Assembly (NCBI RefSeq): GCF_014696825.1
Contig: NZ_JACJQU010000008.1
Location: forward strand, 124,001-188,000
DNA from: Anabaena sphaerica FACHB-251
Lineage (GTDB): Bacteria; Cyanobacteriota; Cyanobacteriia; Cyanobacteriales; Nostocaceae
Length of the DNA: 64,000 nucleotides
Reading direction: 5' to 3'
A program made the translations under genes and the position numbers. Position 1 is the stretch's first letter. Each line of letters begins with the position of its first letter. The notes below the pieces were generated by a model that made no database searches, was not told where the DNA came from, and saw nothing but the letters and a program-made list of their open reading frames with translations. Shown here in pieces: positions 8,102-10,583 of this stretch.

Positions 8102-8155
8102 ACTACCTACACCGACCTGACGGTACTACTGATTTGGTTCACAATTCCCCTTTAA

Positions 8156-8311
8156 ATGCTTTATCGAGTATGGAAGGTAACAGGATACACAGGTTCAAAT
8201 GTTCAGGAACGTCCAGAGGAAGCTGAGAAAGAAGCCTGTCTAACTTTACGAGAATTAGAACGTCTATTGGTAAGGTATCTCATCAGGGGAAACGCATCTA
8301 AATTTTATTGA
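8156..8311 (+). CDS. Short ORF, probably a remnant whose 3' end lies inside a MITE
   Basis: This 51-codon frame (MLYRVWKVTGYTGSNVQERP, then an acidic EEAEKEAC and a leucine-rich helix LRELERLL) has a protein-like composition. Its last ten or so codons lie inside the inverted-repeat element that begins at 8284, so the original C-terminus is gone. I do not recognise the family. It may be the 5' part of a disrupted gene rather than a functional product. Confidence 0.3.
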   Translation: MLYRVWKVTGYTGSNVQERPEEAEKEACLTLRELERLLVRYLIRGNASKFY

Positions 8312-8480
8312 CAAAATACCGTTTTGATGCACAAACGAAGAAATCCCAATTTATCGTTTGATTGATTTTTTTAGAGTCATAGTGATGGACTAGAGCATTG
8401 TCAATAAGTAGGCATTAATGCGAATATTTTGCTCATTATTGAGATTAAATTGTCCTTATTGATAAGATGCGTTTCCCCTG
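8284..8480. mobile_element. MITE-like element with 16-bp perfect terminal inverted repeats
   Basis: CAGGGGAAACGCATCT at 8284-8299 is repeated exactly in inverted orientation at 8465-8480, giving a 197-bp element with no coding capacity. Inside the ends the two arms diverge but keep an ATTGACAA-like similarity. No clear target duplication is visible in the flanks. The element separates a short rightward ORF from the 5' fragment of an hsdS-like gene on the opposite strand, so it may have caused or followed the loss of both. Confidence 0.65.
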
Positions 8481-8490
8481 TACCTTTACC

Positions 8491-8565
8491 TCATTGAGGT
8501 TTTTTATAGCAAAGTTCCCCCAATTTTACCACCTTCCAACCAGGAGGTAATTCTATTTTATCCAT
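8491..8565 (-). pseudogene. 5' fragment of type I restriction specificity gene (hsdS-like)
   Basis: Read leftward from an ATG at 8565, the frame encodes IELPPGWKVVKLGELC and stops after 24 codons, 11 bp before the MITE at 8480. The LP-x-GW-x-x-x-KLGE pattern is the usual opening of HsdS target-recognition subunits. The ATG overlaps the end of the PIN gene by 8 bp, the spacing expected of a co-translated operon. With the hsdM-like fragment further upstream on the same strand, this looks like the relic of a type I restriction operon. Only the N-terminal signature supports it. Confidence 0.5.
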
Positions 8566-9019
8566 TTTTACCACCTGCTAAAAAATCACTCAAAACTAAA
8601 ATTGGTAATTCTGTTACTCGTTTCAATTGAATATCATTCGTTAAAAATACATCACACTTAGCAACAATAGCCACAGAAATTTGTAAAGAGTCTAATAAAG
8701 CCAAATTATATTTAGCCCGTAATTGAGAGGCTTGTTTAGCAATTAATTCATCAATTTGAATAAACTCAACATTTACACCAGAAACAATCAAATCAATAAA
8801 ATCCTCTTGTAGTTCAGTTAATCCTAAACGATAAGGATAAACTAAACACTCAGATAAAGTGATAGGAGAAGTAACAGCACTCAGCAAACCTGAATCAAGA
8901 TTCTCAAATACATAATCCACTAACGATTGATATTGAGGATTATTCTCAACATAATAAATTACTGGTGCAGTATCCAGAAATAACTTTTTATCCTGAATTA
9001 AATAATCTTCAATCTTCAT
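8558..9019 (-). CDS. PIN-domain ribonuclease toxin
   Basis: The 153 residues carry the PIN-domain acidic set: FLDTAPVIYYVEN (first Asp), SPITLSECLVYPYR (Glu), ALLDSLQISVA (Asp) and FLTNDIQLKRV (last Asp). PIN toxins of the VapC type cleave RNA and are held by the product of the gene just upstream, which overlaps this one by 11 bp. A truncated hsdS start overlaps its 3' end, so the pair once sat inside a restriction operon. All acidic positions appear intact, so it is probably still functional. Confidence 0.8.
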   Translation of the reverse strand: MKIEDYLIQDKKLFLDTAPVIYYVENNPQYQSLVDYVFENLDSGLLSAVTSPITLSECLVYPYRLGLTELQEDFIDLIVSGVNVEFIQIDELIAKQASQLRAKYNLALLDSLQISVAIVAKCDVFLTNDIQLKRVTELPILVLSDFLAGGKNG

Positions 9020-9284
9020 AGTTACTTCTTAAATGTAATTCTCTATTTTCCGTCTCCTCTCTTCTATTTCTTGACACCCAAATTTGAGCATCTTCACCAA
9101 CTAAAGGATAGAGTGCTTTACCTTTAATATCTCCCCATTTACGGCGTTGTTTTGGCTCTACATCCTGTTTTTGTCCTTTAAATTGCAAAAAATCAATAAA
9201 ATTTAATACTTCCTCCTGTTGTTCCGGTGTTAAATTCTGGACTCTATCTAAAATAGATTTTTGTTTTTCCACAGCTTGAGTCAT
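9009..9284 (-). CDS. DUF2281-type antitoxin partner of PIN toxin
   Basis: This is a 91-residue protein with the DUF2281 hallmark at its N-terminus: ILDRVQNLTPEQQEEVLNFI, followed by DFLQFKGQ. A basic stretch, KQRRKWGDIKGKAL, and a charged C-terminal tail follow. Its 3' end overlaps the PIN gene by 11 bp, the classic translational coupling of antitoxin and toxin. By family and position it should neutralise the PIN ribonuclease and probably autoregulate the pair. Confidence 0.7.
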   Translation of the reverse strand: MTQAVEKQKSILDRVQNLTPEQQEEVLNFIDFLQFKGQKQDVEPKQRRKWGDIKGKALYPLVGEDAQIWVSRNRREETENRELHLRSNYED

Positions 9285-9627: not shown

Positions 9628-9864
9628 CTATTTACCTAAATTCAACCTAATCAAAACCTCATCTAAATCCTTATCAGCCCATTCTCTTGCTTGTCTTGCT
9701 GCTGCTAAATCTGCTAAAATATCACCAATTTCCCGATGTACAAACTTCTCGCTAATATCCACAAACTGAGAAGGACTAAGATTATAATCAGCCTCTCTTA
9801 ACTTTTCAATTTTGACAACCTTACTCAATTTATCCCTAGTTTCCCAACTGCTGTCTCCTATCAA
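9628..9864 (-). pseudogene. 3' fragment of type I restriction methyltransferase gene (hsdM-like)
   Basis: The encoded 78 residues include YNLSPSQFVDI followed by a conserved-looking helix (IGDILADLAAARQARE) and DKDLDEVLIRLNLGK. N-x-N/Y-NLS-x-S-x-x-V near the C-terminus is typical of HsdM proteins. No ATG precedes it; only a TTG at 9864 opens the frame, and the catalytic methylase region is absent. I read it as the decayed tail of a modification subunit, upstream of the PIN pair and the hsdS fragment on the same strand. Expression is unlikely. Confidence 0.5.
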
Positions 9865-9893
9865 TGGATTTATTCTTGGAGGGAACTATTAGG

Positions 9894-10319
9894 TTAACGC
9901 AATTTGTTAACTAATTGTTGATAAATAATATCTAACCACACAGGAATCACAGCTTTACCTTCATCCAGAGATGCGATCGCAATTTTCTTATCAAACTCTA
10001 CCAACGAAAGCGAATCCTCCTGTGCCGACAACAACAACATAAACCGCTTACCTTTACCTGAAACAAACAACTCCGGCTCTTGTTCCTTCAGCCTTTTCAG
10101 TGTTTCACAGGCAATATCAAAACTGATACCCGTAGACAGCCAATATACCATCGCTGCCAACTCCACCAAATTAGACCTGGAATAATAAATACTGCGTCCC
10201 GTACCCGTATCACCAATTACAGGTACAACAATCCCCTTCTCTCGCCAATACTGAATCTGGCGAAGGGTACAACCTGTCAATTGAGCCGCTTCCTTACTTG
10301 TGAAAAAATTTTCTTGCAT
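9894..10319 (-). CDS. MerR-type DNA-binding regulator, possibly CvkR-like
   Basis: The 141 residues begin with a MerR winged-helix motif: TSKEAAQLTGCTLRQIQYWR, then a wing containing GTGRSIYYSRSNLVELA. The remaining 80 residues form a C-terminal domain with strands (RFMLLLSA) rather than the long coiled coil and cysteines of metal-sensing MerR proteins. It starts 182 bp from a CAST-like transposon terminus and reads away from it. Type V-K CRISPR-associated transposons often encode a MerR-type repressor of cas12k (CvkR). That identity is an inference from fold and position; no cas12k remains here. Two ACAAATATG repeats upstream of its start could be an operator. Confidence 0.65.
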   Translation of the reverse strand: MQENFFTSKEAAQLTGCTLRQIQYWREKGIVVPVIGDTGTGRSIYYSRSNLVELAAMVYWLSTGISFDIACETLKRLKEQEPELFVSGKGKRFMLLLSAQEDSLSLVEFDKKIAIASLDEGKAVIPVWLDIIYQQLVNKLR

Positions 10320-10416
10320 AAAATACTATTTTACAGAAAGCGGCTATAATACAAATATGGTATTATTAGACAAATATGTTTAAAAGGTATGAGCCAAATT
10401 ACCATTCAGGCGTAAA

Positions 10417-10506
10417 GGACAATTAATTTGGCAAGGCGGACAATAATTTGTCAACGCGGTCAAATAATCTGGCAAACGACAGCGACATATAATGTGCGAA
10501 TGTACA
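10417..10506. mobile_element. Candidate terminus of a Tn7-like / type V-K CAST element (TnsB-site array)
   Basis: Four related direct repeats with a period of about 21 bp start at 10417, 10438, 10458 and 10482 (for example GGACAATAATTTGTCAACG and GGTCAAATAATCTGGCAAACG). The array ends in TGTACA at 10501-10506, five bases from the 3' end of tRNA-Thr. Ends of type V-K transposons start with TGTACA and carry repeats of this TGACA-N-TAAT-x-TGTC style as TnsB sites, and these elements insert beside tRNA genes. The opposite end, tnsB/tnsC/tniQ and cas12k were not found, so this would be a decayed element. Confidence 0.65.
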
Positions 10507-10511
10507 ACAAA

Positions 10512-10583
<72 letters not shown>

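Follow-up and report, generated by a model that had tools for sequence, protein, structure and literature searches.

The insertion at tRNA genes is standard for type V-K CRISPR-associated transposons (CASTs). The element lies downstream of a tRNA gene that is directed at it, with the tRNA, the left end (LE) and the regulator gene cvkR in that order, and the published distances between the PAM and the LE range from 46 to 82 bp (PMC9938897). Regulators located beside a degenerate cas12k gene, as well as 18 regulators without any CAST component, have already been published (PMC9938897).

The stretch of DNA analysed here, hereafter the window (64,000 nucleotides; G000:C8:124001-188000), belongs to a 6.19-Mb genome of a filamentous cyanobacterial family. 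We propose, with a probability of about 0.94, that the locus adjoining its tRNA-Thr(CGT) gene represents the left half, now decayed, of a CvkR-lineage type V-K CAST. The locus resembles the CvkR-group V-K CASTs (AnCAST of Anabaena PCC 7120; G131/L036, G016/L037 and G116/L042) in its left end, tRNA site and orientation, as well as in its cvkR gene divergent from cas12k, its restriction cargo and its tnsB family. Unlike these elements, the window has no CRISPR, tracrRNA or right end and apparently no tnsC or tniQ, and it has lost nearly all of cas12k and tnsB. Similarly to the degenerate V-K CASTs of PMC9938897, it has kept a CvkR-type regulator together with a degraded cas12k, a left end and a tRNA, but it differs from them in that seven cas12k codons are left and in that its LE abuts a relic of a second lineage. 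This type of remnant has already been described; what is particular here is the well-preserved deletion junction and the double left end.

The left end and the start of cas12k

The features on the tRNA side of the locus are as follows:

10512-10583, minus strand: tRNA-Thr(CGT), the attachment-site gene (ARAGORN), with its 3' end towards the element
10482-10506, minus strand: terminal repeat of another V-K CAST lineage (TGTACATTCGCACATTATATGTC + GC), from a pattern survey of the family genomes
10417-10481, minus strand: left end of the CvkR-lineage V-K CAST, with the terminus TGTCGTTTGCC at 10481 (blastn to the LEs of relatives)
10410-10416, no strand: internal-deletion junction, where cas12k codon 7 is joined to the LE (comparison with L037)
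10389-10409, plus strand: cas12k codons 1-7 (ATGAGCCAAATTACCATTCAG, MSQITIQ), identical to the intact cas12k start in L037
10320-10388, no strand: divergent cvkR/cas12k promoter region (comparison with L037)
9894-10319, minus strand: cvkR, the MerR-type repressor gene of V-K CASTs, an intact ORF of 141 aa (PDB 7xn2, Pfam MerR_1)

The tRNA, the LE and cvkR occur in the order and orientation expected of V-K CASTs. The LE reads on the minus strand, away from the tRNA, with three repeats where TnsB sites would sit; blastn and alignment show these repeats to be homologous to those of known elements, and their binding by TnsB is predicted. The motif TTG[AC]CA[AG]ATTA has three matches in the whole window, both strands included, all of which are in the array (minus strand, starts 10475, 10454 and 10434). 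As measured by blastn, the LE is 93% identical over 60 bp to that of L042 (10422-10481), 91% identical to that of L043 (10417-10481) and 86% identical to that of L047, three elements endowed with a full-length cas12k, and 89% identical to that of L045 (10411-10481), the cas12k of which is truncated.

On the other side of the junction, the 90-bp segment 10320-10409 is 100% identical to the cvkR-cas12k intergenic region and cas12k codons 1-7 of L037, whose cas12k is full-length; the start MSQITIQCR is also found in the Cas12k proteins of L036 and L098. In L037, about 3 kb, comprising cas12k and the anchor spacer, separate the codon 7 point from the LE. The junction at 10410-10416 is a plain internal deletion, at which the CRISPR array, the anchor spacer, the tracrRNA and the remainder of cas12k are gone.

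Cyanobacterial Tn7-like elements use tRNA sites too (PMC11406308), and one of those without CRISPR (e.g. Tn5469-like) might have left a remnant merely resembling V-K ends. However, this origin is contradicted by the cas12k start, and since the cas12k start codons, CvkR and a V-K TnsB fragment are all present, we regard it as extremely unlikely. The proposal of an earlier note on this DNA, that one end of a decayed V-K CAST lies beside tRNA-Thr, is borne out by the LE, CvkR, the cas12k start, the tnsB fragment and the elements of the relatives.

Two left ends at the same tRNA

The array was first described as four repeats (starting at 10417, 10438, 10458 and 10482) ending in TGTACA, five bases from the 3' end of tRNA-Thr. 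All four repeats are present in the sequence, and the tRNA predicted by ARAGORN is indeed separated by five bases from the TGTACA at 10501-10506. For repeats 3 and 4, the proposed GACA-N-TAAT-x-TGTC form turned out to be no more than a loose fit. The view of the array as the end of one element holds for repeats 1-3, which make up a single array; the fourth repeat (10484-10506), which reads TGTACATTCGCACATTATATGTC, belongs to a different V-K lineage, and the CvkR-lineage element ends at 10481 instead of 10506.

Were the whole array, TGTACA included, one left end of one element ending at 10506, its partner right end would finish in GACATATAATGTGCGAATGTACA. The TGTACA start and the repeat-like shape of 10484-10506, together with the continuous spacing of the array, speak for such an element, but we find it unlikely from the following lines of evidence. 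First, the intact relatives of the CvkR element terminate at TGTC[GA][CT]TTGCC, and the right end of L042 matches, inverted; as L042 has the inverted termini TGTCGTTTGCCAAATTATTTGACC at its left and right ends, this class of elements ends at TGTC, and the end in the window is therefore 10481. Second, the 23-mer comes from a different set of elements, and it precedes a third kind of LE in G131. Third, the PAM-to-LE distances of the relatives (63 in G131, 52 in G024, and 52-63 across the six relatives measured) are nearer to the 66 that separate the same GTA PAM from 10481 in the window than to the 41 that separate it from 10506, a distance that is non-discriminating by itself because several GTN sites give 48-85 bp.

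The pattern TGTACATTCGCANANTATATGTC, with two mismatches at most, was found in 49 of the 145 family genomes and 0 times in the reversed control, and inverted pairs of it enclose a full-length cas12k in G097, G092 and G039. These two findings show that 10482-10506 is the terminal repeat of a V-K lineage other than that of the CvkR element. Like V-K CASTs with TGTACATTCGCA.. ends, such as those of these three genomes, the window has the 23-mer next to the tRNA, but unlike them it keeps just the terminal repeat. That the TGTACA repeat might be native sequence 3' of tRNA-Thr was considered and rejected, since the 23-mer is also found at tRNA-Ala, -Pro, -Thr and -Val, and at both element ends. A separate observation in G021 is a 609-bp stretch (G021:C62:106998-107606) flanked by a perfect inverted V-K terminal repeat (TGTACATTCGCAAATTATATGTC), which is possibly a miniature CAST-derived element.

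In G131 (L036), the same 23-mer sits between tRNA-Thr(CGT) and the CAST left end, and in G024 a 10-bp piece of it (TGTACGTTCG) is located between tRNA-Thr(CGT) and the LE. As the inner termini are exact in the window, G131 and G024, we infer that an older left end was already present when later CASTs inserted immediately inward of it. Hence, 10482-10506 is probably the relic of an earlier insertion, and the two insertions would have occurred in that order; alternatively, the double end may have arisen through a deletion between stacked elements.

The comparison of this tRNA-Thr locus between relatives, which the earlier note had recommended, showed that the gene order DUF3493 gene-tRNA-Thr(CGT) is kept, that several relatives have no recognisable element there (e.g. 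L062), and that others harbor a decayed cvkR (G053, G014, G062 and G028). At the same tRNA, G131 and G024 possess a V-K CAST with a full-length cas12k (in G131, tnsC is broken by an insertion), and their anchor spacers (ATCAGTAGGTCGTGGGTT in the case of G131) match tRNA-Thr(CGT), with GTA as the PAM. As in V-K CASTs, the window element lies downstream of the tRNA-Thr(CGT), which is directed at it. It speaks against the proposal that neither a right end nor a target-site duplication was found; a clear 5-bp duplication is also absent from the compared elements (L036 with L091, L098, L042 and L043). Neither of the two observations named beforehand as refuting a transposon end, i.e. repeats dissimilar to any TnsB-site array and the same sequence in relatives where no element ever inserted, was made. 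About 120 bp downstream of the tRNA-Thr(CGT) of another relative (L097, G066), the sequence AATATGCGAATGTACA is likely a reversed V-K terminal repeat, which may point to one more former insertion here.

Right-side remnants and missing components

Between the end of phnE (8101) and cvkR, the window contains the following features:

9631-9885, minus strand: 3' part of an hsdM gene, from type I restriction cargo (weak tblastn matches, E 2.5e-5 to L049 and 5e-5 to L046)
9009-9284, minus strand: VapB/DUF2281 antitoxin-like gene (NCBIfam TA_VapB below the cut-off; Pfam DUF2281)
8558-9019, minus strand: PIN-domain toxin-like gene, paired with the VapB-like gene (Pfam PIN, E 1e-12)
8494-8565, minus strand: possible hsdS 5' fragment (MDKIELPPGWKVVKLGELC...), assigned by eye from tblastn
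8283-8480, no strand: MITE-like insertion of 198 bp, with the terminal inverted repeat CAGGGGAAACGCATCT (genomic copies)
8178-8281, plus strand: tnsB internal fragment of 36 codons (104 bp; nucleotide and protein comparison)
8123-8180, minus strand: probable hsdS 3'-terminal fragment (93% identity to L038 16935-16992)

The tnsB fragment shows 87-95% nucleotide identity to the tnsB genes of L042, L043 and L044, and 92% amino-acid identity to residues 327-362 of a V-K TnsB, itself homologous to the solved TnsB 7svw. It is the sole trace of TnsB in the genome. The earlier note was right in its mention of restriction-system remnants, in the form of the hsdM fragment and the probable hsdS fragments, which fit the cvkR-hsdM-hsdS order of the G131 CAST. 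The hsdM fragment matches Pfam N6_Mtase with an E value of 0.004, below the cut-off, and the putative hsdS 5' fragment (8494-8565) has no Pfam match. The 8123-8180 segment, which adjoins the end of phnE, resembles the C-termini of HsdS proteins and is probably hsdS; its counterpart in L038 (16935-16992) reads ...AILPSILDKAFKGEL. The VapB/DUF2281-like gene is either cargo or a later arrival. The MITE-like element, the inverted repeat of which was read from the sequence, has four genomic copies of 90-100% identity, and the 99% identity of one of them indicates that it was recently active.

The profile search for Cas12k was negative in this genome and positive, with the same profile, in 86 of the 145 family genomes; the search for TnsC in the genome, run without a positive control, gave no match. 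No right-end array occurs at the locus, and the genome search with the right end of a relative returned, above chance, the LE alone, in keeping with the previous claim that the partner end is lost. The associated claim that the transposition genes are lost is mostly correct, except for the 36-codon tnsB fragment and the seven cas12k codons that remain. The region of the anchor repeat-spacer is deleted in the window, and none was seen there; at the same tRNA, both G131 and G024 have one. The possibility of a V-K CRISPR repeat hidden elsewhere in the genome was rejected, as its 3' motif was found exactly once, inside an apparent coding gene. Lacking effector, transposase, guide and second end, the remnant is unable to move by itself.

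One could imagine that the remnant does not result from decay and is instead a non-autonomous mini-element (LE, cvkR and cargo) mobilised in trans by CAST proteins, as cvkR is intact and the tRNA-LE-cvkR arrangement without a full cas12k also occurs at other tRNAs. We consider this very unlikely, however, because the right end was not found, the genes are fragmentary, the broken relatives have different deletion points (cas12k is cut after codons 7, about 55, 81, 165 and others) and two copies of one such unit at different sites were never seen.

On the model of the intact relatives, we propose that the decayed CAST arose as follows. A Cas12k protein with a truncated anchor crRNA matching tRNA-Thr would have picked the site, and TnsB, TnsC and TniQ would have placed the element at 10481, some 60-66 bp downstream of the tRNA's GTA PAM. 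An older CAST of the other lineage would already have left a left-end relic there, of which 25 bp are still present by the tRNA, and the new element would have inserted immediately inward of it. An internal deletion, whose junction is visible in the sequence, then fused cas12k codon 7 to the LE, with the loss of the CRISPR array, the anchor spacer, the tracrRNA and most of cas12k. Later losses and the MITE shrank the right side to the 36-codon tnsB scrap and the restriction fragments, the right end being gone.

The surviving repressor gene

The MerR gene had been regarded as cargo; it is in fact the regulator of the CAST itself. CvkR proteins are defined by their homology to Alr3614/CvkR, their length of 139-185 aa and the divergent orientation of their gene and cas12k. 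The window protein has 141 aa and matches PDB 7xn2 (Alr3614/CvkR; E 5.9e-37) and Pfam MerR_1, its gene is divergent from the cas12k start, and it shows about 90% amino-acid identity to the CvkR of intact CASTs. Close cvkR relatives occur at named loci of Chrysosporum bergii, Cuspidothrix issatschenkoi, Anabaenopsis elenkinii and Trichormus sp. NMC-1. The gene is intact and probably still encodes a DNA-binding repressor. Against the proposed reading, the best matches to the published CvkR motif AnnACATnATGTnnT carry at least three mismatches, both in the promoter region of the window and in those of the two relatives checked.

The window cvkR is a mosaic, in that its first ~300 bp are ~98% identical to L037, while the remainder resembles other copies; this pattern suggests a recombination inside the gene. 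In the comparison of 9894-10411 with L037 and L036, these ~300 bp of cvkR were near-identical to Chrysosporum bergii and the rest was not. The pairwise dN/dS of the window cvkR is 0.10-0.25, values that are no proof of selection after the loss of cas12k, since the gene is a mosaic and the loss is undated. In several CASTs (L041 10181-10261, L042 9672-9767 and L043 9816-9896), the last 27-30 cvkR codons are duplicated directly downstream of cvkR, a trace that an exchange of cargo at cvkR may have left.

Of 55 full-length, undamaged cvkR genes tallied by hand, 26 had an intact neighboring cas12k, 25 had a broken or missing one and four were unclear; no broken cvkR was seen next to an intact cas12k. 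That cvkR outlasts cas12k is in part a length effect, cas12k being ~4.5 times longer. The copies whose cas12k is broken or missing are interspersed with the intact ones in the cvkR tree, indicating that cas12k was lost many times. Lone cvkR-like genes were observed at G029:C1:510402-510839 (L150) and G074:C1:3320880-3321317 (L151), both in genomes where Cas12k gave no match. They share their downstream context, with about 10 kb of synteny, and their dN/dS is 0.089 at a dS of about 0.9; it follows that some CvkR-like genes are kept under constraint without a CAST, and this gene is a candidate domesticated CvkR.

Significance

The locus illustrates which CAST component tends to survive longest, and the tRNA-Thr site provides a record of its use by at least two V-K CAST lineages. 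A conceivable, though rather unlikely, reason for the retention of cvkR after the death of its CAST is that the repressor left behind keeps newly arriving CASTs of its own lineage silent, as a repressor-type immunity. If this were true, the CAST remnants at tRNA genes would be a standing protection, and if leftover CvkR still represses, both the spread of CASTs and the use of CAST tools in cyanobacterial hosts would be affected.
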